Assembly: GCA_947176775.1 (NCBI GenBank)
Contig: CAMWRY010000002.1
Location: 1-53,749 of the forward strand
Length of the DNA stretch: 53,749 bases
Source: an uncultured Bacteroides sp.
Lineage (GTDB): Bacteria; Bacteroidota; Bacteroidia; Bacteroidales; Bacteroidaceae
Direction: 5' to 3'
The position numbers and the translations under genes are program-made. The notes under the pieces were generated by a model. It ran no database searches, was not told where the DNA came from, and saw only the letters and a program-made list of their open reading frames with translations. How positions within the stretch are numbered: position 1 is the first letter of the stretch; each line of letters opens with the position of its first letter. Positions 15,000-43,315 of the stretch are shown piece by piece.

Positions 15000-15025
15000 T
15001 TGAACCGGAGGATAAACATTTGAAC
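15000..15025 (+). promoter_or_regulatory. Candidate HTCS operator copy 3: TTGAAC-N14-TTGAAC
   Basis: TTGAACCGGAGGATAAACATTTGAAC; hexamers exactly 20 bp apart, 70 bp upstream of the esterase ATG; shares AAACATTTGAAC with the copy near 31.2 kb. Confidence 0.5.
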
Positions 15026-15094
15026 AAATAGGAAAGAATGCTTTGAGGGCAATTCGCTAATATTGCGGTCGTAAAACAAATTGTTAAAGATACT

Positions 15095-16783
15095 ATGAAA
15101 CTGAATTTCATTTTTGGGCTCTTGTTTTCTGTAGTTGCATTGCAGATGAAAGGGGCTGGTGGAACCCCTGAAGGGCTTCCTCCGTTTGTTCGTTTTCCTG
15201 GGTTGGAGCAGGAAGTTTACATTACGCGTGATACGTGCAAGAGTGTAGAGGGACGTTTTCCCGGCTTTTCCCCTTTTTTCGTGATTTATCCGGACAAGCC
15301 GTGCGATGCTTCCGAAGCGGCGGCGTTGACGGATGAATTGGGTATTGCGTCCTATGCGCACACCTATTCGGGGACGGTCTGTGTGATGAACCCCTTGGGA
15401 AAGGAGTATGATGCGGTGAAGGATTTGGAAGCTTATAAGAATTTCCTGAACAAGATGCGTGTTTTTACTAATCTGAAGATAATCGGTATAGGTAAGGGAG
15501 CGACGTTCGTTAATAGAACCATTGCCGGACATGCGGGTGCTGTTGCCGGTATCGTATCGCTGAATGGCCGACCGGCCAAGACGGCTGAGGGTGCCGCCCC
15601 CGTTCCTGCTTTTATTGCCGGAACACACAGTCGGCAGGTAGCGGCAGCCTATATCTTGCAGAATCAGGCGGAACCGGTGCGGAAAGAAGACGGGTTGGCT
15701 TGTTATGCCAACCGGCAGGAGCCTCTACAGCAGGTTGTGGTGAGTGCAAACAAGTACATTTCCCTGAAAGAAGCTTTTGCGGAAGCTTGGAAGACTTTGC
15801 TTTGCAAGAACTACCGTTTCAACAATTACGAACATACTTGGTACACAGGAGCTCAATTCGACCAATATGGTACGTATGAGCTGGAGCCGTATATCATGCC
15901 CGAAGATTGGGGAATCACTCGTCGTGTGATGAAGAAAGACCTTATCGGTACAGGCGATTTCCTATGGTATGAATTCCATCCGGAAGCTACCTTGAAGGCA
16001 GAAAAGGCTTCTGTGCCGTTGTTGCTTTTGCTGCATGGCAACAACAATGATCCGCGTACGCAGGCTGAGACATCCGGCTTCATTGAGTTGGCGGTTGAGG
16101 AGAACTTCATTGTTGCCGAATTGGAGTGGCAGGGCAACGGTTATGCTCCTATGGGGTTGGACGGCATCGAGCAGGTGGTGTATCATCTGTTGAAGACCTA
16201 TCCGCAGATAGACCCTTCGCGGGTATATGCCGAAGGGCTTTCGGCAGGAGCCGCCACGGCTACGGGACTTGGTATACGCAAGTCGCACGTGTTTGCCGCT
16301 GTGGGTGCCCAATCGGCTGGGCTGACCCCCGACCGGTATATGTTCGGTTACAGTGGCGAAGCCCTGATGAACGAGGCGGTGCAGAAACGGGGCAGTGTGG
16401 AGACCGCTTATTTCTCTGTGACGGGTACGGACGACGAAGTTGTGCCTTTTGTAAGCGAGAACAATTGGCGCACCAATGCCTTTTTCTGTGCCTGGACTGC
16501 CTATCAGACCATGAACGGCATGGAGGTGAGCAGCCGGCCTGACTTTTCCAAAGATGCCACCTTCGGCATAGCGCTGAAGGATAGGGAAGTGATTTCCACC
16601 AACAAGCGCGTCACGATGGAAGCGGGAGTGCTTTACAAGGGAAACATTCCGCTGATTAAAGTCGTGGCTGTGAATGACTACGGTCATTGGAACTTCAAGC
16701 CTGACGCACGGTTGATGTGGGATTTCATGAAACAATTCTCCCGCGACCCGCAGACGAAGAAACTGGTTTATAACAAGCGATAA
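15095..16783 (+). CDS. Secreted alpha/beta hydrolase, PHB depolymerase/feruloyl-esterase-like
   Basis: 562 aa; signal-peptide-like N-terminus, VPLLLLLHGNNNDPRTQAE, nucleophile elbow EGLSAGAATATGL, GTDDEVVPF, YGHWNF. Confidence 0.75.
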   Translation: MKLNFIFGLLFSVVALQMKGAGGTPEGLPPFVRFPGLEQEVYITRDTCKSVEGRFPGFSPFFVIYPDKPCDASEAAALTDELGIASYAHTYSGTVCVMNPLGKEYDAVKDLEAYKNFLNKMRVFTNLKIIGIGKGATFVNRTIAGHAGAVAGIVSLNGRPAKTAEGAAPVPAFIAGTHSRQVAAAYILQNQAEPVRKEDGLACYANRQEPLQQVVVSANKYISLKEAFAEAWKTLLCKNYRFNNYEHTWYTGAQFDQYGTYELEPYIMPEDWGITRRVMKKDLIGTGDFLWYEFHPEATLKAEKASVPLLLLLHGNNNDPRTQAETSGFIELAVEENFIVAELEWQGNGYAPMGLDGIEQVVYHLLKTYPQIDPSRVYAEGLSAGAATATGLGIRKSHVFAAVGAQSAGLTPDRYMFGYSGEALMNEAVQKRGSVETAYFSVTGTDDEVVPFVSENNWRTNAFFCAWTAYQTMNGMEVSSRPDFSKDATFGIALKDREVISTNKRVTMEAGVLYKGNIPLIKVVAVNDYGHWNFKPDARLMWDFMKQFSRDPQTKKLVYNKR

Positions 16784-16818
16784 TCGGCAACTTTTATCGG
16801 AAGTAATCTCTATGCAGG

Positions 16819-16858
16819 CCACGGCTCTTTCTTTTAAGGGAATTAGAGGGAGCCGTGG
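16819..16858. terminator. Hairpin between convergent genes
   Basis: CCACGGCTC ... GAGCCGTGG inverted repeat (9-bp arms) between gene ends at 16783 (+) and 16883 (-). Confidence 0.6.
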
Positions 16859-16882
16859 GTGCTGATAAGGGATGTACAAGGT

Positions 16883-19800
16883 TTATTGATACTCACTCGG
16901 GTTTATGCCGAATTGTTTTTTAAAGCAGGTAGAGAAGTGGGGAAGGGTATTGAAACCGGTCATGTCCGCTATTTCGGAAATGGTATAGGTTCCTTCCTTG
17001 ATTAGTTCGGCTGCGCGGTTCAGTTTATAAGTTCTGAAGAAAACGCTTGGATTCTTGCCGGTTAACCCTTTCACCTTGTAGTAAAATTTGGTACGGGAGA
17101 TTTTGAGTAATTCGGCCATCCGCGTGATGTCCAGTTCCGGATTATCCAGTTCATTTTCCATTAGTTTATACAGTTCTGTCATGAAGGCCTCGTCTTTTGG
17201 GGTAAGGGCAAGTTCTTTCATCTGGCTTGTCCGGGTATTGTTCGTCAGGAAACTACGCATTTTATCACGGTTCGTCAATAGTGATTCAATCAGGGCCAGT
17301 AAGTAAGCCGGTTCAAAAGGTTTGGGCACGTATGCGTCTGCTCCGGTATGCAATCCTTCTATCTGGTTTTCCACGGTGGATTTGGCGGTTACCAGAATGA
17401 CGGGTATGTGACAGAATTGCAGGTTTGCTTTAATCTCTTTGCAAAGCTGGTAACCGTCTTTGTCCGGCATCAGTACATCGCTCAGTATTAAATCCGGAGC
17501 TTCGTCTACAATGGTCTGGAAGATGTTGGTGGAATTGAGTCGGCTGATGATGTGATAATGCGGGGTCAGCAGAATCTGCAGATAGTGCATGATGGCCGGG
17601 TCATCGTCTACTATGAGTATTGTTTTCGAACTTGTTTTACCTTCACGGGCAGCATCCGGTTCTATTTTCGCAGGTTCTATGGAAGTATTGTTCAGGAGTG
17701 TTTTTTTACCATAGAACCGTTCCTCTTTTGTGTACGAGAAATCGTCTGCGGGCAGAATCAGGATAAACATGGCTCCGTTCCCTTCTTTCCGGTTTGCCGC
17801 TTTCAAGTGTCCGTGGTGCAACCGGGCAAGGCATCGGGCATAATAAAGCCCGATGCCGGTTCCCAAATTGTAAGTCCCTTTGTTGCCTTTTATCTGATAG
17901 AACCGTTCAAAGATTTTTTCCAGCTGTTCTTCCGGAATGTTTTCTCCGGTGTTGGTTACGGAAATCCGGATATACCGGACGCTTTTGTCTTGTTCTGTCA
18001 GGCAGAAGAACTCCTCGGCTTCTTGGCGTGTGACGATGGCGAACGAGATTTCTATTTCACCTCCTGTAGGAGTAAACTTCATGGCATTGGAAAGCAGATT
18101 GCTCAGTATTTTCTCTACTTTGTCTTCATCGGCCCAATAGAGGATGTCATGGTGTAATCCCTGAATGCTAAGGGTTATATTCTTGCTTTGGGCATTGATG
18201 TTGAAGAAACTGATGATTCGTTTGATGGTGGAGGCAAGGTTGGTCTGTTGGACTTCCAGTCCCAGGTTGTCGTTGTCTAATTTGTTGAAATCGAGCAATT
18301 GGTTGACTAGCTGGAGCATCCGCAGAATACCGTCTTGCAGAACATTCAGTAGTTCCCGGTTGGCACTGTATTGGCCGGGGGCGGCACACAGTTGTCTGAT
18401 GGAACCCAACATCGTGGTCAGTGGTGTCCGGAACTCATGGGATATGTTGGTAAAATAGCTCATGTATGTCTTATTCATTTTCTGCTCTTGTGCTTTTTCT
18501 TGTTCGGCACGGCAGGCGGTTTCTTTCTCGATTCTTACGCGCCGCCAACTGTGTATAAGTGTACCGGCTATTCCGATGATTGCCAGAGCATATGCACATC
18601 TTGCCCACCAGGTATTCCAAGGAGCAGGTTTGACGATGATGCGCAACTGTTTTTCTTCTCCGATTATGCTTTGGTCTTCATTGGTGATTTTTACTTTGAA
18701 CATATAGGTTCCTGTGGGAAGGTTGGCATAATAAGCTTCCCGGTTGGTGTGTGCATTTATCCAGTAGCGGTCAATGCCTTCCAATAGGTAGTGATAGTGT
18801 ATTCGTTCGTATTCACTATAATCCAATGCGGCAAATGATATGCTGAAGCTGGTCTGGCTATGTTTCAGATATACGTCCGGTTGGTAGGAGAGGTCCTTGT
18901 CGATGATTGCATTCTTTCCGGGATATACAAGCTTGTTATGAATCTTCAGATTCTCGAAAGTGAGTGGAACATGGTATTTGAAAGGAGTTTCCACCGGATT
19001 GAAGAATGTCATTCCGTGAGTGCCGCCGAATACTAAGGTTCCGTTTGAAAGTCGGCAGGATGCACGGTCGTAGAATTGATTGCCGCCGATACCGTCAGTT
19101 GCATAGTAGTTGCTGATTTGATTGGTCCGGCGCTCATATTTACTTAATCCGTATAATGTGGATATCCATAGGTTCCCTTGTATATCTTCTTCGATGCTGC
19201 AAATCTCTGTGCAGCCAATGCCGGATATAGGAGATAATTTATGATTCTGCGAAGTATATCGTAAAAGCCCGTTATGGGAGGTCCCAATCCAGATATCTCC
19301 TTGGCTGTCTTCGTATAATACGGAAGGGATAAATTTAGAACGGCGTATGCAGGCCAGGCTGTCTGCCCTCGAGATGTCCGGTATCCGGATTTTCCATGTA
19401 TCCGGATTTATTGAACGAATCTTGTTGGCAAAGGAGGCAATCCATACTTCTCCATTGGAGAGGGGACGTAGGGTAGGAGTAAAGGTGAAAAATGACTGGG
19501 GATAAAGTGATACGGGTGTGAATACCTTTTCACCTTTTTTCAGGGCATATATTGCCTGGCTGAAGCTGCCTGCCCATATTGTTCCGTTACGGTCTTGCGT
19601 TATGCACAGTACGGAAGGGACGGAAAAAATACTCGTTGCTTTTAATTGATTAGACTCGAGCACGCATTTTATGACTTGATTGGTATTGGTGGCAAGCCAG
19701 ATGTGCCGGTCTTTGTCGTGATAGATGTGTCTGACAATTATATTTTCTGTGTTTTGTGCAGGTAGGATTCTACTGATATTCACAGCTTCTATATGCTTGG

Positions 19801-20929
19801 TATTCAGGTTGTAGATATACATTCCGTCTTTCAGGGTGGATATATACAAGTTGCAGGAGTCGGCATCGAGGGCTATGATGGATTTTTGATGGAAGAACGA
19901 ACGCAGATAATTGTTGCTGTTGAAACGCTCCTTATAATGATAGCGTACGGTATAGCCTTGGTCCGGCGAGCCTATCCACAGATTCTTGTGCGAGTCGGTG
20001 TACATGCATTTGATGCCATGTTGCGGGACTTCAAATGGAAATCCGTTTTCCTTTTCATGTATGACGGTGTTTTCTATGTGGTTGTAAAGGAACGTATGCT
20101 TTTGCGTGCAAATCAGTAGCCTGTTCTTGTCGTACGGGTGTATATAGGTGATGGCGGCTTTCGATAAGATGGGATGATTACTTATTGCTTCGGGAGTCGT
20201 TTTGAATCTTTTGCTTTCGGTATCGAATATGAAGAGTCGGTTCTTGCTTGCCAGCCATAGGGAGGTATGGTTGTGCATGTAAGAGTAGGTAATCTTCTGC
20301 GGCATGGGTATGGAGTCTGTCAGTTGCATGTTTCGGGAGTCGTAGCATCGGATGGAGACGGGGTTGACGGCCCACAGACAGTTGTTGTTATCCATGTAGC
20401 AGGTCTGCTTATAGGTCTTGTCCGGGTCAAAGTTGATGAAAATGCGGTTGAAGGTGTCCGTTTCGGGATTATAGACGCAGAGATGTACCACCATGTTTAG
20501 GAAGATTTTTCCATCCTTGCTTTCTATGAACTGATATCCGTTCCTATTATTATAGGGCACGTTTATGGGTATCTGGCAGAAGTTGTCTTGGTCGGTATAT
20601 CGGCATGTTCCGTCGGTTGTCGCTATCCATAAGCGTTTGCGTGAGTCCATGAAAATATCCTGGATTCTATCTCCGGGCAGTTGCAGTGAGTCGTTGGAAC
20701 TGTAATATTGCCGGTATTCGTGTGCGTTGAATCTGTTCAGTCCTCGTGTGGTTCCTATCCAGATATAGCCTTGCGCGTCTTCTTGGAAATCCGTAATGTT
20801 TTGGTTGGAAATGGTTGCCGAAATTCTATAAACATCCTGTTTTTCCGCTTCTGCTTTGGCGGTTGTCGGTTGGCACGAAGACACCGCTATTGCAGATAAA
20901 GCTATGAGGGAAAGAATGATTTTTTTCAT
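16883..20929 (-). CDS. Hybrid two-component system regulator (HTCS1): Reg_prop/Y_Y_Y periplasmic sensor, histidine kinase, receiver, AraC-type DNA-binding domain
   Basis: 1348 aa; N-terminal lipobox-like SSC, IWIGT propeller repeats, SHEFRTPLTTMLGSIRQL kinase box, ILIVDDDPAIMHYL receiver, C-terminal AraC HTH ISEIADMTGFNTLPHFSTCFKKQFG. Confidence 0.95.
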   Translation of the reverse strand: MKKIILSLIALSAIAVSSCQPTTAKAEAEKQDVYRISATISNQNITDFQEDAQGYIWIGTTRGLNRFNAHEYRQYYSSNDSLQLPGDRIQDIFMDSRKRLWIATTDGTCRYTDQDNFCQIPINVPYNNRNGYQFIESKDGKIFLNMVVHLCVYNPETDTFNRIFINFDPDKTYKQTCYMDNNNCLWAVNPVSIRCYDSRNMQLTDSIPMPQKITYSYMHNHTSLWLASKNRLFIFDTESKRFKTTPEAISNHPILSKAAITYIHPYDKNRLLICTQKHTFLYNHIENTVIHEKENGFPFEVPQHGIKCMYTDSHKNLWIGSPDQGYTVRYHYKERFNSNNYLRSFFHQKSIIALDADSCNLYISTLKDGMYIYNLNTKHIEAVNISRILPAQNTENIIVRHIYHDKDRHIWLATNTNQVIKCVLESNQLKATSIFSVPSVLCITQDRNGTIWAGSFSQAIYALKKGEKVFTPVSLYPQSFFTFTPTLRPLSNGEVWIASFANKIRSINPDTWKIRIPDISRADSLACIRRSKFIPSVLYEDSQGDIWIGTSHNGLLRYTSQNHKLSPISGIGCTEICSIEEDIQGNLWISTLYGLSKYERRTNQISNYYATDGIGGNQFYDRASCRLSNGTLVFGGTHGMTFFNPVETPFKYHVPLTFENLKIHNKLVYPGKNAIIDKDLSYQPDVYLKHSQTSFSISFAALDYSEYERIHYHYLLEGIDRYWINAHTNREAYYANLPTGTYMFKVKITNEDQSIIGEEKQLRIIVKPAPWNTWWARCAYALAIIGIAGTLIHSWRRVRIEKETACRAEQEKAQEQKMNKTYMSYFTNISHEFRTPLTTMLGSIRQLCAAPGQYSANRELLNVLQDGILRMLQLVNQLLDFNKLDNDNLGLEVQQTNLASTIKRIISFFNINAQSKNITLSIQGLHHDILYWADEDKVEKILSNLLSNAMKFTPTGGEIEISFAIVTRQEAEEFFCLTEQDKSVRYIRISVTNTGENIPEEQLEKIFERFYQIKGNKGTYNLGTGIGLYYARCLARLHHGHLKAANRKEGNGAMFILILPADDFSYTKEERFYGKKTLLNNTSIEPAKIEPDAAREGKTSSKTILIVDDDPAIMHYLQILLTPHYHIISRLNSTNIFQTIVDEAPDLILSDVLMPDKDGYQLCKEIKANLQFCHIPVILVTAKSTVENQIEGLHTGADAYVPKPFEPAYLLALIESLLTNRDKMRSFLTNNTRTSQMKELALTPKDEAFMTELYKLMENELDNPELDITRMAELLKISRTKFYYKVKGLTGKNPSVFFRTYKLNRAAELIKEGTYTISEIADMTGFNTLPHFSTCFKKQFGINPSEYQ

Positions 20930-21057
20930 ATATGAAGTGTATTAAGATATGTTCCGCGGAGAGTGTTTTTTTACAATGGAGCAGACAAAAGTAGAAAGAA
21001 AATAAGTAGGTGATATTTGCTGTAACAGTGATTTTTCCGCTTGGAATATGCTGTATG

Positions 21058-21093
21058 GCATGTTTTGAACATATTGATAATCTTTTGAACGTA
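21058..21093 (+). promoter_or_regulatory. Candidate HTCS operator copy 1: GCATGTTTTGAACA-N12-TTTGAACGTA
   Basis: Two TTTTGAAC hexamer/octamer copies 20 bp apart in the HTCS1/susC1 divergent spacer; matching copies at 31238 and 15000. Confidence 0.55.
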
Positions 21094-21236
21094 AAAGAAA
21101 CAATATCTGAACATATAGGAAATGTTTTTGTATTTTCTCAATATCCTCTTATTCCCTCTTTTGATAAAATTGTATCGAAAATCCTGCAATGAGTGAATGT
21201 AGCTTTTTTATTAACAAATCTAATTATTTAAGCATT

Positions 21237-24200
21237 ATGGAAAACAACTTTAAAAGAAAGCTGATGGCATTCTGGCTGTTCCTTTTGGTGGGAATACCTT
21301 ATATGCTGGCGCAAAGTCCGATGATGGTATCGGGACGGATCACAGATGATTTGGGAGAACCGATGATTGGTGTGAGTGTACTTGAAAAGGGCACCTCTAA
21401 TGGAGTGATTACGAATATGGAGGGAAATTATTCCTTAAAGGTAAAGCAAGGTGCCGTCATTGTCTATTCGTACATCGGATATGTGACACAAGAACTGAAA
21501 GCCGTATCAGAGAGAATGAATATAACGATGAAAGAAGACACCCGGACGCTGGATGAAGTGGTAGTGGTGGGCTATGGTGTACAGAAGAAGAGCGACCTGA
21601 CAGGCGCCATTTCTTCCGTGAAGGCAGAAGACATCCAGAACCGCTCTATTACCCGGGTGGAAGAAGCCCTGCAGGGCAAGACAGCCGGTGTGCAACTGAT
21701 ATCCACGACTTCGCAACCGGGCGCCTCGCCTACCATTCGTGTCCGTGGTTTCTCGTCGAATGGCACTTCCGACCCTCTCTATGTGGTAGATGGATTGATA
21801 GTATCCGACTTGAGTGCTGTGGATCCTAACAATATAAAAAGCATGGAAGTCCTGAAAGATGCCGCATCCGCTGCCATTTATGGTGCGCAGGCCGGTAATG
21901 GCGTGGTGCTTATTACCACAAAGAGCGGAAGCAAAGGCACCAGCAGCATTTCCTACGACTTTCAATATTCCATCAGTAGCCTGGCCCGACGTCCCAAGCT
22001 GATTAATTCACAAGAAGCCTTATTGCAAAAGAAGGAGCAAGACCCTACTTTTACAGATGATAATATCCAGGAGCTTATTACCAGCGGCACATGGGACGGC
22101 GTATCGACTACCGATTGGTATGATGTGGCTTTTAATGCTTCGCCATCCTCCCATCATACGGTCAACTTTCAGGGAGCGAATGACAAGGGCTCTTTCTTCC
22201 TGTCATTAAACAATCTGTATGACAATGGTATTCTTCGTGAAAACAAGGATACCTACAAGCGGCTTTCCGTCATGCTGAATGCCGACTATAACATTAAACC
22301 TTGGTTGAAGGTAGGTGTTACTGCCAATTATGCAAAATATACGCAGAAATCCATCAATGACGGTAGTGCGGGCAATTCATATTCCAGTATGATTGCTACC
22401 GTGATGACCATGGCTCCTTATTATGCGGACACTTATGCAGCCGATGCGCTTCCTAAACAAATGGAGGCATTGATTGCCAACGGCTTTACTTTGCTGCGCA
22501 ATGACAAGGGCGATTATTACAGCTGTCTGGGTTCTATGGAACAGATACATCCTATGGTAGCCATCCGCATGAGCGACAAGAAAAACTTCGGCAACAGTCT
22601 GATGGGAACGCTCTATGCCAACCTGACTCCTTTCAAAGGATTTGTGTTTACTACCCGGCTGGGTTACAGGGAACTGAACGCAAACACTTATCAGTATAAC
22701 AATCTCTATTACGGTTCGGCTTCCGCCAATAATAAGGATAAGAACGGGGCCAGCCGCTCCAACTCCTCTACTACCTATTATCAGTGGGAGAACTTTGTGA
22801 ATTATAGTACGGATTTGTGGGACAAGCATCATGTGTCTGCCATGCTGGGTATGTCCTACAGCGAGAATAACTTCACTTATGTTTCTGCCGGTGTAGACAA
22901 GACTGCCAAGCACGATCCTTTGTATGCCGACGTTTCGTATCCTGCCGGAGATGCCGTGAAGAGTACCGCCGGTTACAATCTGATTAATCGCAAACTGTCC
23001 TATTTCGGCCGTTTGGCTTACGATTACCAGAACCGCTATATGCTGCAAGCGGCCATGCGTGCCGATGCCGCCGATACTTCCGTGCTTCCGGGTACCAATC
23101 GCTGGGGCTATTTCCCGTCGGTATCAGCCGGTTGGGTCATTTCCAACGAGCGCTTTTTCACGGAAAAGAACAATACCCCTCTCACATTCCTGAAGTTGCG
23201 TGCCAGCTGGGGACAGAATGGAAGCACAAGCAATCTGAGCGGTTACAAGTATTCCAATTCCCTGGTGACTTCGGCTGCCGGATACTCTTTCAGCAATACG
23301 GCGATGAACTATGTCACTTCTGCCAAACCTTCGCAGCTCTATAATCCTGACTTGAAGTGGGAAACCTCCGAACAGCTGGATTTGGGTATGGATTTGCGCG
23401 CTTTCAACGACCGCTTCTCGTTTGGTATGGACTGGTATCAGAAAAAGACAAAAGACTTGATTGTTTCCAACATTGTCATTCCTTATGAGGCGGGAAACTC
23501 ATCGGCTCCGATGAATGCCGGTAATGTGACGAATAAGGGTTTTGAGTTTGAGGCCGGATGGAAAGACAAAGCCGGTGATTTCAACTATTCTGTGACCGCC
23601 AATCTGGCCACTTTGAAGAACGAGGTCACTTATCTGGATCCGCATGTCAGCGGCGGACGCATAGAAGGCGCCACTACAATGGCTTCGAACGGTTCGTTCT
23701 CCGCATTCGAGGTAGGCTATCCGGTGTGGTATTTCAGAGGCTATCAGGTCGATCATCTGGATGACAAGGGCAATCCCGTATTCAGGGATAATACGGGTGA
23801 CGGTACCATTGATGCCAGTGACAAGGCGATGATTGGTAAACCGATGCCGGACTTCACGTATGGCATCACGTTGACCGCCAACTACAAGAATTTTGATTTT
23901 CTGATTTTCGGCAACGGCTCCGTGGGCAATGACGTATTCATGTCCTACAGTTATAACTCCATATCCTATACGCTGAAGGAGATGTACGACCAGCGCTGGA
24001 CGGCGGACGGGACTACCAGCCGTAAGTTTGCACGGCCGCAGAATACGAATGCAGACAAGTATGGCTTGTCCGATGCCTATATTTTTGACGGCTCTTATTT
24101 CCGCATCAAGCAGATACAGCTGGGATATACGTTGCCCCGGACGGTTACGAAGAAATTCCTGGCCGACAAGCTGAGAGTATATGCCTCGTTGGATAATTTC

Positions 24201-24329
24201 TTCTTGTTCACGAAGTATCCGGGACTCGATCCGGAGGTTTCCTCCACGGCTACCAGCGGTATGGGCGTGGATTACGGAAATTATCCCACAACGAAGAAGG
24301 TGGTGTTCGGTTTATCAGTTACATTTTAA
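21237..24329 (+). CDS. SusC-like TonB-dependent outer-membrane transporter (susC1)
   Basis: VSGRITDDLGEPMIGVSVLEKGTSNGVITNMEGNYSLKV, TLDEVVVVGYGVQKKSDLTGAISSV, VRGFSSNGTSDPLYVVDGL; start trimmed to the ATG at 21237. Confidence 0.95.
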   Translation: MENNFKRKLMAFWLFLLVGIPYMLAQSPMMVSGRITDDLGEPMIGVSVLEKGTSNGVITNMEGNYSLKVKQGAVIVYSYIGYVTQELKAVSERMNITMKEDTRTLDEVVVVGYGVQKKSDLTGAISSVKAEDIQNRSITRVEEALQGKTAGVQLISTTSQPGASPTIRVRGFSSNGTSDPLYVVDGLIVSDLSAVDPNNIKSMEVLKDAASAAIYGAQAGNGVVLITTKSGSKGTSSISYDFQYSISSLARRPKLINSQEALLQKKEQDPTFTDDNIQELITSGTWDGVSTTDWYDVAFNASPSSHHTVNFQGANDKGSFFLSLNNLYDNGILRENKDTYKRLSVMLNADYNIKPWLKVGVTANYAKYTQKSINDGSAGNSYSSMIATVMTMAPYYADTYAADALPKQMEALIANGFTLLRNDKGDYYSCLGSMEQIHPMVAIRMSDKKNFGNSLMGTLYANLTPFKGFVFTTRLGYRELNANTYQYNNLYYGSASANNKDKNGASRSNSSTTYYQWENFVNYSTDLWDKHHVSAMLGMSYSENNFTYVSAGVDKTAKHDPLYADVSYPAGDAVKSTAGYNLINRKLSYFGRLAYDYQNRYMLQAAMRADAADTSVLPGTNRWGYFPSVSAGWVISNERFFTEKNNTPLTFLKLRASWGQNGSTSNLSGYKYSNSLVTSAAGYSFSNTAMNYVTSAKPSQLYNPDLKWETSEQLDLGMDLRAFNDRFSFGMDWYQKKTKDLIVSNIVIPYEAGNSSAPMNAGNVTNKGFEFEAGWKDKAGDFNYSVTANLATLKNEVTYLDPHVSGGRIEGATTMASNGSFSAFEVGYPVWYFRGYQVDHLDDKGNPVFRDNTGDGTIDASDKAMIGKPMPDFTYGITLTANYKNFDFLIFGNGSVGNDVFMSYSYNSISYTLKEMYDQRWTADGTTSRKFARPQNTNADKYGLSDAYIFDGSYFRIKQIQLGYTLPRTVTKKFLADKLRVYASLDNFFLFTKYPGLDPEVSSTATSGMGVDYGNYPTTKKVVFGLSVTF

Positions 24330-24347
24330 ATAATAAATAGAAGAAAT

Positions 24348-26009
24348 ATGAAAAGAAAATATATCTTGTCCGGACTGTTGGCGTGTGCACTTACATTTTC
24401 CGCATGCGATGTCGATTTGCTGGATATTCCCCAGAAAGGTGTAGAGAATGAAGAGAATTATTATCAGACGGATGAACAGTGTGAGTCTGCCATCGCTGCT
24501 GTCTATGCGTCCTGGCGGAATGCTTATTCCGGGCGTGGTGAGAAAGCCTCGCAGTATGCCAACGGTTTCTTCCTGAAAAATTTCTTGGCAGACGATTTCA
24601 ATTCGGGTGGTGCCCGCTCCGACCAGGTGTATGCGCAGGAGATATACGAAAGTGCGATAGTGGCCACGAACGGTTGGGTGGAAAACTATTATAAGAGGTT
24701 GTATGCCACGATTTATCTGGCCAATCTGGTGATTGAGCGGTTCGATGCCGCTGAAAGTGAAGTGAAGGCAAGAAACATTGCCGAGGCCAAATTCTTCAGA
24801 GCCATCTGCTATTTCGAACTGACCACTTTGTGGGGGACTCCTCCTTTGGTAGATAGGGTATTGAAGAATTCGGAAGAGTATAAGGTGCCCAACTCCACTG
24901 CCGAACAGTTGTGGAAATTCATGGAGACAGACCTTACGGAAGCTATAACTTCCGGGAAACTCACTTCGAAAACGAGTTTGGAAGACAGGGACGGGGGAAC
25001 CCGCGCCACGTTGGAGGCTGCCCGCTGCTTGTTGGGAAAGATTTATCTGTATCAGGAGAAATATGCCGATGCCAAAAGTGAGTTGGAGAAGGTCATTTCT
25101 TCCGGCAAATATGATTTGATAGCCGATGTCAGCACATTCTATCATCCGGCCTCTGCAGGCTGCAAGGAGTATGTGCTGGAGTGTGTGCGCCATTACGACC
25201 CTTCCAACATGTATTCTCAGGAGGGCTGGTTCGGCATCTTGGCCAATTGGGGATTCGGCTATGGCTTTATAGCCGGTCCGGAAGCGTCCATGCACTATAA
25301 GTTCAACACTACCAGCGGTTACAGCTACTTCAATCCGTCAAAGTCTTTGTACGATGCCTTTGTGGCTGAGGAGGGTGCCGACGGGTATCGCTTGAATGCC
25401 TGGATCAGGACCTGGGAGCAGGTGATTGCCATGAACATTGCGGTGAACACGACTACCAACAAATATGCCAGCGAAGGCTATTTCCGTCTGAAATGGCTGG
25501 CAAGCACCGATGACGAATTTGTAGGGTATTGGTGTGGAAACCAGAGCAATACTCCGGTCATCAGATATGCGGATGTGTTGCTGATGGCTGCCGAGGCTTG
25601 CCTCCAGGCGGGAGACCAAGCCGGTGCCGACGAATATCTGGGCAGAGTGCGCGACAGGGCCCGTCTTCCCAGAAAGAGTCATGTGACGCTTTCCGATATA
25701 AAGCTGGAGCGCCGCTTGGAACTTGCTATGGAAGGCATGCGCTTCCAGGACCTGAAGCGTTGGGGGGATGCTCCGGCGGTATTGGCGGATAAAGGGAAAA
25801 AGTTACCGACTTTCCAGATTGTACCTGACCCGAATAATGACCTCACTACGGCGGCAGGCATCTACAACGCCCGTTATACGACCAAAACCACTTATGTCGA
25901 TAATGAAAAGTCGTTGTCGGGTTGGACTCCCAATCGCGACGAGTGGCTGCCGTTTCCTGAAAATGAATTGGAGGTGAACAGCAACCTGAAACAGAATCCC
26001 GGTTATTGA
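24348..26009 (+). CDS. SusD/RagB-like surface lipoprotein (susD1)
   Basis: 553 aa; lipobox FSAC, AEAKFFRAICYFELTTLWGTPPLVDRVL, VLLMAAEACLQAG, ERRLELAMEGMRFQDLKRWG. Confidence 0.95.
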   Translation: MKRKYILSGLLACALTFSACDVDLLDIPQKGVENEENYYQTDEQCESAIAAVYASWRNAYSGRGEKASQYANGFFLKNFLADDFNSGGARSDQVYAQEIYESAIVATNGWVENYYKRLYATIYLANLVIERFDAAESEVKARNIAEAKFFRAICYFELTTLWGTPPLVDRVLKNSEEYKVPNSTAEQLWKFMETDLTEAITSGKLTSKTSLEDRDGGTRATLEAARCLLGKIYLYQEKYADAKSELEKVISSGKYDLIADVSTFYHPASAGCKEYVLECVRHYDPSNMYSQEGWFGILANWGFGYGFIAGPEASMHYKFNTTSGYSYFNPSKSLYDAFVAEEGADGYRLNAWIRTWEQVIAMNIAVNTTTNKYASEGYFRLKWLASTDDEFVGYWCGNQSNTPVIRYADVLLMAAEACLQAGDQAGADEYLGRVRDRARLPRKSHVTLSDIKLERRLELAMEGMRFQDLKRWGDAPAVLADKGKKLPTFQIVPDPNNDLTTAAGIYNARYTTKTTYVDNEKSLSGWTPNRDEWLPFPENELEVNSNLKQNPGY

Positions 26010-26059
26010 TTTATCCTGAGAAATTCACAATTCGGTTTAACTATATAAAGAAGAAAAAC

Positions 26060-26887
26060 ATGAAAAGAAACTTAGTGATATTTGCCCTGCTGTTTGTTTG
26101 TATGGCTATAGGGGCGCAAACGGTATTCAAGAATGAAGAGGTAGAGGTTTCCTTGTTGAAAGAGAAGACTTGGGTATTTTCTACTTGGGACTATACTACC
26201 ATGTATCTGATAGAGGGCGAAGACAAGGCCGTGCTGATTGATACCGGCACGCGTTGTGCGGATTTGGATAAGATTGTGGGACAGATAACCGGGAAACCGC
26301 TGGAAGTAATCGTCACCCACATGCACCCCGACCATGCCGGCTGCATCAAGTATTTCGATAAAGTATGGATGCATCGGGCCGATACGGTGCTGGTGCCCCA
26401 GCATGCGGCAGATTATCAAGGAGAATTCCTCTATATGGAAGAAGGACAAGTGTTCGACTTGGGTGGACGCAAGCTGGAAGTGGCATGGATGCCCGGGCAT
26501 ACGCCCGGCTCGGTGGTACTCCTGGACAAGGCAAACGGAGACTGTTATTCGGGTGATGCGTTCGGCTCGGGTGAAGTATGGCTGCAGTGTGTGCCGATGT
26601 CTCCCATCGCCACTTTCCATGAGTCGTGTTGCCGTATGGAAAAGCTCATGAAGGAAGGGCACATCAAGGATATCTGGTGCGGACATTATCCTTATCTGAA
26701 ATCTTCTTTGCCGCTGGCCTATATTCAGACGATGATACGTATTTCCCACAGGCTGATGAATGGAGACCAGGAAGGTTCGGAACCTTATTCCAACTATTTC
26801 ATCAAGATGCCTCCCACTGCGAGGAAGTTGGCCGAAGGCCGGGCGATGATTGTATATGATTCGACTAATATTCCGGAAGCCCGGTAA
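26060..26887 (+). CDS. Secreted metallo-beta-lactamase-fold hydrolase
   Basis: Signal-like MKRNLVIFALLFVCMAIGAQ, then VIVTHMHPDHAGC (HxHxDH), PGHTPGSVVLLD, GDAFGSGE, WCGHY; start trimmed from 26006 to 26060. Confidence 0.88.
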   Translation: MKRNLVIFALLFVCMAIGAQTVFKNEEVEVSLLKEKTWVFSTWDYTTMYLIEGEDKAVLIDTGTRCADLDKIVGQITGKPLEVIVTHMHPDHAGCIKYFDKVWMHRADTVLVPQHAADYQGEFLYMEEGQVFDLGGRKLEVAWMPGHTPGSVVLLDKANGDCYSGDAFGSGEVWLQCVPMSPIATFHESCCRMEKLMKEGHIKDIWCGHYPYLKSSLPLAYIQTMIRISHRLMNGDQEGSEPYSNYFIKMPPTARKLAEGRAMIVYDSTNIPEAR

Positions 26888-26924: not shown

Positions 26925-27008
26925 CCTTGTATGCACGAGATGTGCATCTCATGTATCTCGAGATGTGCATCTCGTGTTGTATGAGATGTGCATCTCGTGC
27001 ATACAAGG
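26925..27008. repeat. 84-bp inverted repeat containing three 23-bp-spaced GAGATGTGCATCTC units
   Basis: CCTTGTATGCACGAGATG...CATCTCGTGCATACAAGG arms; GAGATGTGCATCTC at 26937, 26960 and 26983. Confidence 0.9.
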
Positions 27009-27090: not shown

Positions 27091-30000
27091 CTATTTGCCG
27101 TATTCGCTCGGACTTACTCCGAACTGCTTCTTGAAGCTCTTCGAGAAGTGGGACAGCGTGCTGAATCCCGTCATGTCCGCAATTTCCGAGACGGTATGTT
27201 TCCCTTCCGTTATCAGTTCGGCGGCACGGTTCAGCTTGTAGGTCTTGAAGAAGGTGCTGGGGCTTTCGCCGGTCAGTCCTTTTACTTTATAGTAGAACTT
27301 GGTGCGTGATATTCTCAGCAGTTCGGTCATGCGGGCAATGTCCAGTTCGGGGTTGGAGAGCTTGCTCTCCATCAGGTGGTAGAGTTCGGTCATGAAGACA
27401 TTGTCTTGTGGGGAGAGGATGTTCTCTTCCATCTTGTCCGTCTGCGTGGCTTTTCCCAGCATGTTGCGCGCTTTCTCGCGGTTCTTGAGCAGCGACTTGA
27501 TGAGCGCCAGCAGGTAGGCAGGGTCGAAAGGCTTGGTCACGTAGGCGTCGGCTCCCGTGTCCAGTCCTTCCACCTGGTTTTCCACGGTGGCTTTGGCCGT
27601 AACCAGAATCACGGGCAGGTGGCAGAGCTGCAAGTCTTCCTTTATCTCCCGGCAGAACTGGTAACCGTCCTTGCCGGGCATCACCACGTCACTCAGAACC
27701 AGGTCGGGTGACTCCTCATGCAGCGCCTTCAGCGCATCGTCGGCATTGAAGCGGCAGATTACCTTGTAGTGGGCGGAGAGGAGGGTGCGCAGGTAGTGCG
27801 CCACTTCGGTGTCGTCGTCCACCACCAGCAGGGTGGGTTGCTTCTCGCCGGTGCCGGTCTTGTTCTCGGCAGGCTGCGAGGCGGCGGCCAGCGGGAAGGC
27901 TTCCGACTGGTTGCTCTGTTCCGTTGCCCGTTCGTCTTCGGCATACGCGGCGTCGTTCACGGGCAGGACGAAGGTGAACACGGCGCCGCTTCCCTCTTCG
28001 GGCTGGCTGGCTTTCAGTTGCCCGTGGTGCAGTACGGCCAGGCTGCGGGCGTAGTACAGGCCGATGCCCGTTCCCCAGTTGTAGGTACCTTCGGCTTGGT
28101 TGCCTATCTGGTAATAGCGTTCGAATATCTTCTCTATCTTGTCTTCGGGGATGCTCTGTCCCGTGTTGGCCACGGACACTTTGACGTACTGCGTGATGCG
28201 CCCGTCGGCGGACAGGCCGAAGAGCCGCGCGGCTTTCTCACGGTCTATTACGTCGAAGCCGACACTGATTTTACCGCCTTGGGGCGTGAACTTCAGGGCA
28301 TTGGACATCAGGTTGTTGAATATCTTTTCCACCTTGTCCTCGTCCAGCCACATCAGGAAGGTGTCTTCCAGTCCGTAGGTGTTCAGGTCGATGCCCTTGT
28401 CGTCGGCGTTCACCCGGAAGATGCCCACCTGGCGTTGCAGGCAGGCGATGAGGTCGGCGCGCTTCACTTGCAGGCGCAGGGTGTCGTTCTCCAGCTTGTT
28501 GAAGTCCATCATCTGGTTGACGAGCCTCAGCATGCGGTTCACGCTGCGCTGCACGATGTGCAGCAGGTTCTTGTCCGCACCCTCTATCCGCGGATTGGCG
28601 CAGAGCTGGTTCACGGGGCCGGAAATCATGGTGAGCGGCGTGCGGAACTCGTGCGAGACGTTGGCGAAGAAACTCATGTTCATCCGGTTCACCCGTTGCT
28701 CCTGCTCTTTCTCCAGGCGGGCGCGGCGGGCGGCCTCCTTCTCGGCGCGGACGCGGAGCAGGGCACGCAGGAAGAGAAGGGCGAGGGCGGTTGCCAACAA
28801 GAAGTAGATGCAGTAGGCCCACCACGTGCGCCAGGGAGCCGGATATACGCGGATGCGGATGGAGTTTTCGGCCTCCACGATGCTCCGGTCGTTGTTGGTG
28901 ATTTTCACGTGGAACACATACTCTCCGGCAGGCAGGTTGGCGTAGTAGGCCTCGTGGTTGTTGCGGGCGTCTACCCAGTAGTTGTCGAAGCCCTCCAGGT
29001 GGTATTGGTAGTGCACTCGTCCGTACTCGCTGTAGTTCAGGGCAGAGAAGGAGATGCTGAAACTGTTCTGGTCGTGCTCCAGGTGTATGTCGGGGCAGTA
29101 GGAGAGGTGCTTGCCGATGGTTTCTCCATGCAATTGCGGGCGTATCAGCTTGTTGTGTATCTTCAGGTCGCTGAACAGCAGCGGGATGTTGCGCTTTATG
29201 GGCACGTCGATGGGGTTGAAGAGCGTGAGCCCGTGCGTGCCGCCGAATGCCAGCGTGCCGTCGGGCAGACGGCACGAGGCGCGGTCGTAGAACTGGTTTC
29301 CGCCTATGCCGTCGGCGGTGTAATAGTTGGTGAAGCGTCCGGCTGTCCGGTCATATTTGCTCAGTCCGTATTGGGTGCTTATCCAGAGGTTGCCTTGCCG
29401 GTCTTCCTCGATGCCCGATATGTCGAGGCAGGAGGTGCCGGGCATGGGTGTCATCCGGCCCGTTTCGGGATGGTAGCACATCAGACCGTTGCTTACGGTG
29501 CCTATCCAGAGAATGCCGTATGTGTCTTTGTACAAGGCCGTGGGGACGAATACGGAGCGGCGGATGCAGGCTTTCCAGTCCTCCTCCGCGATGTCCACCG
29601 TGCCCGTTTCCAGGTTTTCGATGTCAATCTGCTTGATGGGTTGGTAGAAGCCCGTCACCATCAGCCGGCGGTTGTCCATCATCGCCACGCCGGGCACGAA
29701 GGTGAATCCTTCGAAGAGCTTCATCGCCTCGAATTCCTTCTTGCCGGGGCGCAGGGCATAGACGTTGACCGTGGCGGTGCCTATCCAGATGGTTCCGTCG
29801 GGCGACTGGGTGATGGACATGGGCAGGAAAATCCGGTGCCGTTCTTCTATCTTCAGTTGCCCGTCGGGCGTGTAGCGTGCCTTCAGCACTTCATTGTTGG
29901 TGATGGTCATCCATAGGTTGTTGTCGCTGTCCACCATCAGCTGGTTCGCGTAGATGGCTTTCTGTTTCTCTTGCTCGCAGAACGTTTCGGGGTCGATGTG

Positions 30001-31173
30001 CCTGATTTCGCTGCTCTTCGTGTCATATACGTAGATGCCGTCCATCAGGGTGGAAATCCACAGCTTGTGGTCCTTGCCGGCGCTTAGCGACACCACGGAC
30101 TTGTTGTTCAGCTCGGAGCGCAGGTAGTTGTCGTTGTTGAACCGCTCCTTGTAGTGGTAGCACACGGTGTACCCCTGGTCCACGGAGCCTATCCACAGGT
30201 TCTGCTGCGAGTCGGTGAACATCCGGCTGATTCGGAACCGGGGCATCTCGAAGGGGAATCCGTTCTCGTCCTGGCGGGTCACGCTGCCGGTGCCCGGGTT
30301 GTAGTAGAACATGCCGTGTCTGGCGGTGTTCAGCAGCAGGCCGTTGTTGCCGTAGGGGTGTATGTAGTCGATGTCGGCGTTGCACAGCGTGGTGTTTCGG
30401 GCGATGGGCTGCGGCAGCGGCTTGAAGCTGCGCGTGCGGGTGTCGAAGATGCTGAGGGTGTGGTTGCCGGTTATCCACAGCTCGTTGTTGTGCAGGTACG
30501 AGTAGTAGGGATAGCCGTTGAGGGCGACAGACTCTTTCAGCTGAAGGGTGGAGGGGTCGTAGCAGCGGAGCCCGGTGGAGGTCATTACCCAGAGGTTGTT
30601 GTCGGGGGCGATGTGGCACTGTGCGTAGAAGGCATTTCCGGGGCTGATTTCGGGCAGCACGCAGGTAATCTTTTCCTCCCGGGGGTGGTAGGCGTAGAGC
30701 TGGAAGCCGGTGTTGAAGAAGATGCGCCCGTTGCGGTCTTCCAGAATCTGCCTCACGTTCTTGTTGTCGGCCTCGATGGGGATGATGCGGAAATTGTCCT
30801 TGTCGGTGTATAGGCACACGCCGTTCACGGTGCCCACCCAGAAGCGGTTCTTCGAGTCGCGCAGCAGGTGGGTAATCTGGTTGTCGGGCAGTCCCAGCGA
30901 GTCGTCGGTGCAGAAGTACTGGTGGTAGTCGTGCACGTTGTTCTTGTTCAGCCCGCGGAACGTGCCTATCCATATATGGCCTTGCGTGTCTTCGGCTATG
31001 GTGGTGACTTTCTGGTTGGAGAGGTCGTTGGCTATGACGGGGCTTTCGATTTCGGCATTCCGGTTTTCGGGTAGGGGCTCTTTGGCATCGCATGCCGACA
31101 GGCAGACGGCATACAGAGTTCCGGCCAGCAGGCGGAACAGGGTGCGGAGGATTTTCCGGTTAGACAAGGTCAT
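27091..31173 (-). CDS. Hybrid two-component system regulator (HTCS2), paralogue of HTCS1
   Basis: Start trimmed to MTLSNRKILRTLFRLL at 31173; lipobox-like LSAC, propeller repeats, SHEFRTPLTMISGPVNQL, LLVVDDDTEVAHYL, AraC HTH VSEIADMTGFSTLSHFSKSFKKQFG. Confidence 0.95.
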   Translation of the reverse strand: MTLSNRKILRTLFRLLAGTLYAVCLSACDAKEPLPENRNAEIESPVIANDLSNQKVTTIAEDTQGHIWIGTFRGLNKNNVHDYHQYFCTDDSLGLPDNQITHLLRDSKNRFWVGTVNGVCLYTDKDNFRIIPIEADNKNVRQILEDRNGRIFFNTGFQLYAYHPREEKITCVLPEISPGNAFYAQCHIAPDNNLWVMTSTGLRCYDPSTLQLKESVALNGYPYYSYLHNNELWITGNHTLSIFDTRTRSFKPLPQPIARNTTLCNADIDYIHPYGNNGLLLNTARHGMFYYNPGTGSVTRQDENGFPFEMPRFRISRMFTDSQQNLWIGSVDQGYTVCYHYKERFNNDNYLRSELNNKSVVSLSAGKDHKLWISTLMDGIYVYDTKSSEIRHIDPETFCEQEKQKAIYANQLMVDSDNNLWMTITNNEVLKARYTPDGQLKIEERHRIFLPMSITQSPDGTIWIGTATVNVYALRPGKKEFEAMKLFEGFTFVPGVAMMDNRRLMVTGFYQPIKQIDIENLETGTVDIAEEDWKACIRRSVFVPTALYKDTYGILWIGTVSNGLMCYHPETGRMTPMPGTSCLDISGIEEDRQGNLWISTQYGLSKYDRTAGRFTNYYTADGIGGNQFYDRASCRLPDGTLAFGGTHGLTLFNPIDVPIKRNIPLLFSDLKIHNKLIRPQLHGETIGKHLSYCPDIHLEHDQNSFSISFSALNYSEYGRVHYQYHLEGFDNYWVDARNNHEAYYANLPAGEYVFHVKITNNDRSIVEAENSIRIRVYPAPWRTWWAYCIYFLLATALALLFLRALLRVRAEKEAARRARLEKEQEQRVNRMNMSFFANVSHEFRTPLTMISGPVNQLCANPRIEGADKNLLHIVQRSVNRMLRLVNQMMDFNKLENDTLRLQVKRADLIACLQRQVGIFRVNADDKGIDLNTYGLEDTFLMWLDEDKVEKIFNNLMSNALKFTPQGGKISVGFDVIDREKAARLFGLSADGRITQYVKVSVANTGQSIPEDKIEKIFERYYQIGNQAEGTYNWGTGIGLYYARSLAVLHHGQLKASQPEEGSGAVFTFVLPVNDAAYAEDERATEQSNQSEAFPLAAASQPAENKTGTGEKQPTLLVVDDDTEVAHYLRTLLSAHYKVICRFNADDALKALHEESPDLVLSDVVMPGKDGYQFCREIKEDLQLCHLPVILVTAKATVENQVEGLDTGADAYVTKPFDPAYLLALIKSLLKNREKARNMLGKATQTDKMEENILSPQDNVFMTELYHLMESKLSNPELDIARMTELLRISRTKFYYKVKGLTGESPSTFFKTYKLNRAAELITEGKHTVSEIADMTGFSTLSHFSKSFKKQFGVSPSEYGK

Positions 31174-31237: not shown

Positions 31238-31273
31238 CATGTTTTGAACAAAAGAACAAACATTTGAACGTAT
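31238..31273 (+). promoter_or_regulatory. Candidate HTCS operator copy 2: GCATGTTTTGAACA-N12-TTTGAACGTA
   Basis: Same half-sites and same spacing as 21058-21093, in the HTCS2/esterase divergent spacer. Confidence 0.55.
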
Positions 31274-31529
31274 GGGCAAGCGCTTTTAAACTTCCGGGCA
31301 AATCCTTTTTACATGTCGGCCAGCCCTTCCGGCGCAATCGGCGTAATATTGCAACCGGAAAAAGTGAACGAGTTAACAAGGCTACAAGTGAACAAGGCTT
31401 TTCCTTGTAATCGCTTTAAAAAGCAAGATATAGGCCGAGGGCTGTTTATCCCTTCTTGTAGCCTTGTCAACTTGTTCACTAAAAGCAAGTCAAAGACAAA
31501 TTATCAACTTAAAAAAACGGTATACAACC

Positions 31530-33191: not shown

Positions 33192-33228
33192 CGGGACGGA
33201 TGTACGTCCTTTCGGAAAGGTAATACGC

Positions 33229-33364
33229 TGCCAATGAAAAAGTTGCTTTGCCAATCTCAGGACGCTGCTTTGGCACAGCCTTGCCAACATATAGGCAAGG
33301 TCTTGCCTGCCTATTGGCAACGGCTTGCCAACCCGTTGGCAAGAGGCTGCCAGTGGGTTGGCAG
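33229..33364. repeat. Cluster of TTGCCAA/TTGGCAA inverted motifs
   Basis: At least eight TGCCA/TGGCA sites, including the hairpins CTTGCCAACATATAGGCAAG (33280-33299) and CTTGCCAACCCGTTGGCAAG (33324-33343). Confidence 0.85.
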
Positions 33365-33437
33365 GAAGTGGTAGCAACGCCGCCATCCATATAAAAACAA
33401 CACTTGAATTATTAACATAAATCTAATTTAAACGAAA

Positions 33438-36518: not shown

Positions 36519-36543
36519 CTTTTAAACTTAATGGTATAAGACA

Positions 36544-38187: not shown

Positions 38188-38199
38188 TCCTAATAAAAC

Positions 38200-40566: not shown

Positions 40567-40661
40567 GGTGTGCATATACATCACCTGAAAAAACTGATAT
40601 ATATCAATCCGTTTTAGAATGGAAAGCACTTATTTTGTAGTACATTTTTAAAATCTATGCC

Positions 40662-41546: not shown

Positions 41547-41590
41547 GATTTGATTCCCTTCAACTTTCTCCAACTCCTTAAACGATTATA

Positions 41591-41902
41591 ATGATTATGA
41601 AGAATTTTACACTTTTATTTACCCTGCTGCTGATGTGTACAATGACCTTTGCGCAACAAGCATTGTGGATATGAAGGAAGGCAAGGACGGTGTGTGGGAA
41701 TATACCACTACCGAACCGCTGAAGCCTGAACTGTACGGCTATTCATTCTACGTGGACGGCCTGAAAAATAATGGATCCCGGCAACGTCTATATGATTCGC
41801 GACGTGGCAACTGTGACTTTGTCTTTGGAAACTGGCGAGGGACACATCTGGAGAAACTGGCGCATCTATCTGACGGAGTTCGCGCCGAAGTTATTCAAGT
41901 GA
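41591..41902 (+). pseudogene. Collapsed remnant of an esterase gene paralogous to 41992-43188
   Basis: Retains signal peptide ([26 protein letters not shown]), a middle fragment ([32 protein letters not shown]) and the 3' end ([24 protein letters not shown] stop) in different frames; two large internal deletions plus indels. Confidence 0.88.
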
Positions 41903-41976
41903 CCTCGTGCCGATTGATTCACCCTGCACTTTGCCAATCCGAAGTGCAGGATTATAGAAAACCTGTTTAATAATAA

Positions 41977-43188
<1,212 letters not shown>

Positions 43189-43197
43189 ATTGTTGAA

Positions 43198-43288
43198 GGA
43201 GTTATCGCCCTTCGGGCTTAGGAGTTAAAAACCGATAGTATCTCCTTGTGACAGGAAGACTATTGACTTCTAACTCCCGATAGCTCCC
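43198..43288. repeat. Nested intergenic inverted repeat
   Basis: GGAGTTATCG ... CGATAGCTCC outer arms, GGAGTTA ... TAACTCC inner arms, small CCCTTCGGGC hairpin in the left arm. Confidence 0.75.
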
Positions 43289-43315
43289 CTTGAATAATTA
43301 ATATCCCAATCTATC

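Follow-up and report, generated by a model that had tools for sequence, protein, structure and literature searches.

The window, a stretch of 53,749 nucleotides from an uncultured gut Bacteroides sp., belongs to a MAG that is 64.5% complete, and the PULs examined in this source are those within the window. On the plus strand, the TonB-dependent transporter SusC1 (21237–24329, with its start methionine at 21237; TIGR04056, 839 bits) is followed by the lipoprotein SusD1 (24348–26009; PF07980, 135.5 bits, E 3.9e-39) and by a metallo-beta-lactamase (MBL)-fold hydrolase of 275 aa with a signal peptide (26060–26887; PF00753, 79 bits). Upstream, across the minus-strand hybrid two-component regulator HTCS1 (16883–20929; Reg_prop, Y_Y_Y, HisKA, HATPase_c, Response_reg and HTH_18), lies PHBdep (15095–16783, plus strand), a secreted serine esterase of 562 aa with the PHB-depolymerase/fungal-type feruloyl esterase fold. 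An earlier, sequence-only reading had described the susC1-susD1-MBL order, with its coordinates and motifs, and a PHB-depolymerase-like esterase across HTCS1. The first is borne out by the three family matches; the esterase is present as well, as a marginal match to PF10503 (23.5 bits; cut-off 23).

The same reading had SusCD1 followed only by the MBL gene, which proves to be a boundary effect. Beyond HTCS2 (27091–31173, minus strand), which has the domain matches of a hybrid two-component regulator and is 50% identical to HTCS1, candidate operator sites at 31244 and 31264 precede the next plus-strand cluster (31533–50521). The true start of HTCS2 probably lies about 30 codons downstream of its listed ATG at 31263. 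The cluster begins with COest (31533–33191), a type-B carboxylesterase with a lipoprotein-like signal (PF00135, 348 bits; nearest PDB entry 5a2g, E 1e-108), and continues with a second pair, SusC2 (33438–36518) and SusD2 (36544–38187), which are 51% and 40% identical to SusC1 and SusD1, respectively. There are three GH3 genes: GH3a (38200–40566; PF00933/PF01915), GH3b (43316–45310; beta-glucosidase 8idz, E 3.9e-229) and the BoGH3B-like beta-glucosidase GH3c (45900–48389; 5jp0, 1260 bits). The C-terminus of GH3b is frame-shifted in the window; the intact protein of 780 aa is found in L097. Between GH3a and GH3b are CE1a (40662–41546), which is homologous to 5vol, a ferulic acid esterase of B. 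intestinalis (phmmer E 1.3e-135), and CE1b (41992–43188), a CBM48-like plus CE1 protein of feruloyl-esterase type (6rzn/8bbp, E 6e-101). The last gene encodes a GH29-like protein with F5/8 C domains (48629–50521; PF01120, 126.6 bits). It is kept in B. muris; next to the unit in L098, L099 and L124 no homologue was seen.

A domain search found no GH or lyase-type PUL partner within 21237–26887. The earlier statement that there is no glycoside hydrolase therefore stands for this interval and fails for the adjoining cluster, which has the same candidate operator, three GH3 genes and the GH29-like gene. An adjacent susC-susD pair, one mark of a PUL, is present (TIGR04056, PF07980), and the other mark, co-localised GHs, is supplied by the three GH3 genes of the adjoining cluster. 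Endo-acting depolymerases were not found in the window neighbourhood by domain search, and the domains detected in the window cluster include neither GH10 nor GH43.

The candidate operators are of two kinds. PHBdep carries a single half-site (15020–15036, plus strand), TTTGAACAAATAGGAAA, which is an exact match to TTGAACNNATNGGNAA and is related to the sites before SusC1. SusC1 and COest are preceded by tandem TTTGAAC repeats that have a period of 20–23 bp, with three TTTGAAC/CTGAAC sites (21065, 21085 and 21107) in the SusC1 array (21064–21122, plus strand) and the two sites already mentioned in the COest array (31243–31280, plus strand). The motif matches the window at 12 places where 4.6 would be expected, a number reached in 0 of 100 shuffles, and there are 2 tandem pairs where the expectation is 0.005; the candidate operator that had been proposed as common to PHBdep and SusC1 is real. 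The PHBdep site is kept before the orthologues in L004 and L005, the SusC1 array is also found in L006, L033, L035 and L036, and the COest array in L005, L006, L034, L035, L036 and L124. These repeats may be HTCS binding sites.

The place of the MBL gene beside SusCD1, whose loss in relatives would have counted against the earlier proposal, is mostly conserved. The order SusC1-SusD1-MBL is kept in the window, B. muris, G064, G016, G099 and G633, and G035 has PHBdep between SusD1 and MBL. B. rodentium (L005) lacks HTCS1-SusC1-SusD1, and PHBdep is directly upstream of MBL. In L083, from another family, PHBdep-SusC1-SusD1-MBL stand in line and adjoin CE1b-GH3b-GH3c. All ten members of the core clade (the window, B. 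muris, B. rodentium, SC0300, G064, G069, G016, G099, G035 and G633) have the MBL gene adjoining esterases of the PHBdep/COest/CE1 set. The COest-GH3 locus (PUL2) occurs without the MBL module in L124, and over the examined part of L125; MBL is therefore optional and not essential to PUL2.

Across the Bacteroidales, the neighbours of MBL are mostly esterases and exo-acting glycosidases. Distant relatives lie with GH78/GH106 (rhamnosidase) genes and COest (L046, L049, L080), with CE1 and GH3 genes (L087), or in xylan loci (L048, with GH10/GH43/CE1, and L084, with GH115/GH5); L041, L043, L044 and L086 are members without such neighbours. The domain also occurs fused to enzymes of the same kinds: to PHBdep in a protein of 818 aa (MBL-PHBdep; L033/L035/L036), to COest in one of 723 aa (COest-MBL; L038–L040) and to GH3 in one of 1013 aa (GH3-MBL; L042). 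The MBL-PHBdep proteins make up a single clade with good support, as do the COest-MBL proteins, and these two clades and the GH3 fusion lie separately; judged from the protein sequences, the domain was fused in three separate events. In every case the junction is at the expected end of the MBL signal peptide, in keeping with a common location in the periplasm. Bacteria often carry MBL-fold genes, and an unrelated one might have come to lie here by chance. The separate fusions, together with the conserved gene order and esterase neighbours in 10/10 core-clade members, rule this out for practical purposes.

These arrangements bear on the proposal of a self-contained, GH-free PUL-like unit for a non-carbohydrate ester or lactone, e.g. 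a plant secondary metabolite. The absence of GHs from the interval agrees with it, as do the lack of an endo-acting depolymerase nearby and the range of the MBL fold, which covers lactonases and ester hydrolases. Glycosylated small molecules would also suit a SusCD1 paralogue that pairs with GH78 (alpha-L-rhamnosidase) and no MBL in G099:C28, as well as the distant MBL relatives beside GH78/GH106. Against this, the candidate operator is common with the adjacent GH3/CE1 cluster, the SusCD1-MBL unit and that cluster form a single locus in relatives, and L042 has the MBL domain joined to a GH3 enzyme in one protein. A separate unit of this kind is unsupported, and we regard it as improbable.

The MBL protein has the motifs HMHPDH, GHTPGS, GDAFGSG and CGHY. 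Its metal ligands H87, H89, D91, H92, H147, D166 and H209 are all invariant in an alignment of 30 sequences, and the HxHxDH, His, Asp, His ligands together with the alpha-beta/beta-alpha fold are those of a dinuclear hydrolase of the MBL superfamily. D166, in SGDAFGSG, occupies the position of the B1 Cys ligand at the second metal site; by its residues the ligand set is of the glyoxalase-II/lactonase type and not that of a B1 beta-lactamase. Family scores are far below the cut-offs for class B1 metallo-beta-lactamases (NF033088, 31.3 against 200), glyoxalase II (GloB; TIGR03413, 46.0 against 200.8 bits) and the AHL lactonase AiiA (NF045699, 23 against 375 bits). The structure prediction called for by the earlier reading (pLDDT 87.7) has the MBL fold, matched in the PDB at 12–25% identity. 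The search gave 584 matches at E<=0.001; the top 50 have no more than the generic fold in common with the model, and the search therefore selects no substrate. Sequence matches in the PDB are weak (best E 1.3e-7), and neither PDB search found a close homologue with known activity. A protective enzyme, which destroys a toxic lactone or antibiotic entering with the nutrient and has no part in digestion, would likewise be secreted with an MBL fold, and NF012229, a class B beta-lactamase model, gives a weak match (47.8 bits). Yet all NCBIfam beta-lactamase models are far under cut-off, D166 replaces the B1 Cys, and the fusions are to digestive esterases and GH3; protection is thus very unlikely, and an antibiotic beta-lactamase is rejected on the family cut-offs and ligand type.

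In PHBdep, the triad S383/D447/H531 is invariant among 16 aligned sequences. The top PDB fold matches of its model (pLDDT 84.6) are the PHB depolymerases 9byu/8daj, and feruloyl esterases (8iy8, 8jh8, 5vol) are also matched. With such a mixture, a literal polyester digester is unsupported.

Could the locus be an ordinary PUL for feruloylated or acetylated hemicellulose, with MBL as an extra xylan or pectin de-esterase? The likeness of CE1a to 5vol and of CE1b to CBM48-CE1 feruloyl esterases points this way, as do the MBL relatives in xylan loci, and the published esterase-gene-enriched (EGE) PUL of B. intestinalis is a precedent (PMC7815789). On the other hand, GH10, GH43, GH115 and other endo-enzymes are absent from the window locus and none was recognised in its close relatives, and the GH3 enzymes resemble beta-glucosidases. 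Such a PUL is possible, though doubtful. The non-polysaccharide ligand of the sequence-only reading fares in a mixed way: with no endo-acting depolymerase in the locus, small or already cleaved ligands are the likelier, and the distant relatives in true xylan loci speak against it.

The reading we favour, and hold to be reasonably probable, is that SusC1-SusD1-MBL and PHBdep are an add-on module of one larger, apparently co-regulated, esterase-rich PUL that contains GH3; SusCD1-MBL is probably not a stand-alone, sugar-free system. The repeated fusions with enzymes that cleave esters or sugars make MBL a probable, hitherto unrecognised hydrolase of esters or lactones that would act on acylated plant glycosides or oligosaccharides; the partners in these fusions, serine esterases of two kinds and a GH3 enzyme, and the esterase and exo-glycosidase neighbours strengthen the earlier suggestion of such chemistry. 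Counting against this reading are the weak PDB matches of MBL, the members without such neighbours, the PUL2 copies that do without the module and the SusCD1 paralogue of G099:C28 that has GH78 and no MBL. The steps may be ordered as follows. An HTCS regulator on the tandem TTTGAAC sites would turn on both SusCD pairs and the enzymes, and SusCD1 would import an acylated plant glycoside or feruloylated-type oligosaccharide into the periplasm. There MBL, as a dinuclear-metal hydrolase, would cut an ester (or lactone) class spared by PHBdep, CE1a, CE1b and COest, and the beta-glucosidase-type GH3 enzymes would then free the sugar.

To our knowledge, there is no carbohydrate-esterase family with an MBL fold. 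More speculatively, MBL might found a new metal-dependent carbohydrate-esterase/glycoside-lactonase family, a standard Bacteroidales partner of serine esterases and GH3/GH78/GH106 that digests acylated plant glycosides with dedicated SusCD import; we offer this tentatively. Should MBL prove to cleave esters or lactones, a protein family that at present goes by no other name than ‘MBL fold metallo-hydrolase’ would become a marker of gut loci that deacylate plant glycosides, with a bearing on the release of phenolic acids and aglycones from food. The natural fusions are ready-made enzymes for testing.

The literature searched held no description of MBL enzymes as parts of a PUL, and searches on phenolic glycosides gave nothing relevant. 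The closest published system is the EGE PUL of B. intestinalis, an HTCS-controlled susCD locus that also encodes GH3 and CE1 enzymes and a number of esterases (Pereira et al., 2021; PMC7815789). EGE PULs are defined by having more than two carbohydrate esterase genes, known or putative (PMC7815789), and the window locus has CE1a, CE1b, COest and PHBdep. It differs in having two SusCD pairs, PHBdep and MBL, and in lacking the GH43 arabinoxylan endo/exo enzymes of the EGE PUL; the main text of the EGE paper makes no mention of a beta-lactamase-type protein (PMC7815789). Among characterized enzymes, 5vol of B. intestinalis is a clear homologue of CE1a, and the CBM48-CE1 feruloyl esterases 6rzn and 8bbp of CE1b. 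PHBdep resembles the PHB-depolymerase-type esterases (8daj, 9byu; fungal feruloyl esterases 8iy8, 8jh8) in its alpha/beta hydrolase fold and its Ser-Asp-His triad, although it scores under the TIGR01840 cut-off (31.8 against 107.85 bits) and has an extra N-terminal region of ~230 residues. MBL has the HxHxDH, His, Asp, His pattern in common with glyoxalase II and AiiA-type lactonases, and differs from them in its sub-cut-off scores, in being secreted and in having relatives fused to esterases and GH3.

The window comes from a 2.2 Mb Bacteroides MAG that is about 65% complete and is closely related to B. rodentium and B. muris. At 15095–26887, with every domain call confirmed, it has in order a secreted PHB-depolymerase-type serine esterase (PHBdep, 15095–16783, + strand), the hybrid two-component regulator HTCS1 (− strand), then SusC1, SusD1 and an MBL-fold hydrolase (MBL, 26060–26887, + strand). 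The MBL has a signal peptide without a convincing lipobox, and every motif listed for it in the sequence-only reading is found in the protein. That reading regarded SusC1-SusD1-MBL as a unit with no glycoside hydrolase. This holds solely within 21237–26887, since past the convergent HTCS2 the same strand carries a type-B carboxylesterase by domain call (COest, 31533–33191, + strand), SusC2, SusD2, the GH3 enzyme GH3a, the feruloyl-esterase-type CE1a and CE1b, GH3b, GH3c and a GH29-like protein. The SusC1-SusD1-MBL feature is real and conserved but was misread at its edge: instead of standing alone without glycoside hydrolases, it forms the part with MBL and esterase in a larger PUL rich in esterases.

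From sequence comparison, the SusC1 and SusC2 halves look like one system, because their SusC, SusD and HTCS pairs are paralogues (51%, 40% and 50% identity), tandem TTTGAAC repeats are common to both promoters, and both halves lie in line in genomes G064, G016 and G099. In these three, a single HTCS gene is collinear with the SusC1-SusD1 pair, a gene for MBL fused to PHBdep, and SusC2-SusD2. COest stands between the fusion and SusC2-SusD2 in G016 and G099, and the G016 line extends to CE1a, two CE1b genes, GH3b and GH3c; no COest was called in locus L033.

The repeats, candidate HTCS operators with a 20–23 bp period, precede SusC1 and COest in the window and occur at both promoters in L006, L035 and L036, with 2–4 tandem pairs per locus in these loci vs an expected ≤0.005. 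The strict pair test left out looser versions in L037 and L083. PHBdep is preceded by one related site. Other repeats lie nearby. Between the convergent MBL and HTCS2 (26925–27008), the palindrome GAGATGTGCATCTC occurs three times at 23-bp spacing within a 41-nt inverted repeat (85% complementary), and only three more copies are found in the 2.2 Mb of MAG sequence. A 26-nt inverted repeat (92%) is inserted between the operator and the COest start (31363–31480); it is absent from the near-identical SC0300 genome (L004), parts of it are at four other genome places, and it is possibly a small mobile hairpin that alters the COest promoter. Upstream of SusC2 (33244–33366), a cluster of palindromic TTGGCAA/TTGCCAA repeats is also found in L004, with other sequence in its place in B. 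rodentium and B. muris.

Some genes are damaged. The GH3b frame (43316–45657) is broken near 45300, with the C-terminal domain in another frame (45301–45657); SC0300 has an intact 780-aa GH3b (L097), and the break is therefore either recent damage or a fault of the assembly. Of a second CE1b gene only a remnant is left (41547–41992), with its signal peptide, middle pieces and C-terminal end in differing frames, and B. muris has an intact extra copy at the corresponding place (L095:15513–16721). In the SC0300 MAG, window positions ~19278–24749 (HTCS1 front, whole SusC1, SusD1 start) are missing at a clean junction (L004:8691), either because they are truly deleted or because the assembly collapsed two paralogous regions into one.

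MBL matches were found in 25 of 151 genomes genus-wide (E≤1e-20) and 11 of 393 order-wide (E≤1e-35). In core-clade members, MBL precedes PHBdep within one fused protein (818 aa; L033, L035, L036), adjoins it in L037 and in B. rodentium (L005), where the adjacency is kept and HTCS1-SusC1-SusD1 is absent, or lies within a SusC2-SusD2-CE1-GH3 operon (L034). Elsewhere it is fused behind COest (723 aa; L038–L040) or GH3 (1013 aa; L042). The junction in every fusion is the predicted signal peptide cleavage point of the second domain. PHBdep fusions form one well-supported clade, COest fusions another, and the GH3 fusion is separate from both, hence three independent events. Neighbours of distant homologues (32–50% identity) are GH78/GH106 rhamnosidases and a carboxylesterase (L046, L049, L080), GH106 and GH3 (L093), several CE1 and GH3 (L087), CE1b (L088), two GH30 and GH3 (L085), GH10/GH43/CE1/GH127 (L048) and GH115/GH5 (L084); around the homologues in L041, L043, L044 and L086 no esterase or glycosidase link was seen. 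At L087:7059–8900 the MBL relative adjoins an amidohydrolase (PF04909) with CE1 genes around, and an S15-type hydrolase (PF02129) lies farther along its strand, a candidate further acyl/lactone hydrolase set.

Among nine SusD1 orthologue places in the genus search (identity 57% or more), seven have MBL adjacent, one ends at a contig edge, and one has a SusC1D1 paralogue (70%/55%) followed by a GH78-like alpha-L-rhamnosidase and no MBL (G099:C28; L122:7175–14450), hinting that the SusCD1 type imports rhamnose-containing glycosides. SusC2-D2 also occurs without the MBL module in L124 and in the partial locus L125. SusCD1 and MBL are thus not obligate partners.

The sequence evidence extends to which genes are present, which operators they share and which partners are fused; from these we infer the reaction, ligand, HTCS-operator assignment and step order. 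On sensing a breakdown product, HTCS1 and HTCS2 would bind the TTTGAAC repeats, SusCD1 and SusCD2 would import acylated sugars, the serine esterases and MBL would take off differing acyl (or lactone) groups, and GH3 enzymes would free the sugar. The locus has no endo-acting depolymerase, which points to a ligand that is either a small acylated glycoside or an oligosaccharide cut beforehand; given the xylan-type neighbours of distant MBL relatives, it may also be a feruloylated hemicellulose fragment.

MBL residues H87, H89, D91, H92, H147, D166 and H209 are invariant among 30 aligned sequences, a ligand set that is well established in the superfamily as the glyoxalase-II/lactonase type with a bridging Asp, as opposed to the B1 beta-lactamase type, which has Cys in its place. 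AlphaFold2 gives a model of high confidence (pLDDT 87.7), but its PDB matches are at fold level only (12–25% identity), and the structure therefore gives no substrate reading. For the MBL subfamily, a role in plant-glycan loci as a new metal-dependent esterase or lactonase is credible. The PHBdep triad S383/D447/H531, assigned by motif, is invariant in 16 sequences, and a structure search with its model finds resemblance to PHB depolymerases and feruloyl esterases. A domain like BD-FAE, which has been published as a feruloyl/acetyl xylan esterase (PMC8165983), is fused to PHBdep in L075, L078 and L079, from a different genus of the family. Four other enzymes of the locus have close homologues: for CE1a the ferulic acid esterase 5vol of B. 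intestinalis, for CE1b CBM48-CE1 feruloyl esterases, for GH3c BoGH3B and for GH3b the beta-glucosidase 8idz.
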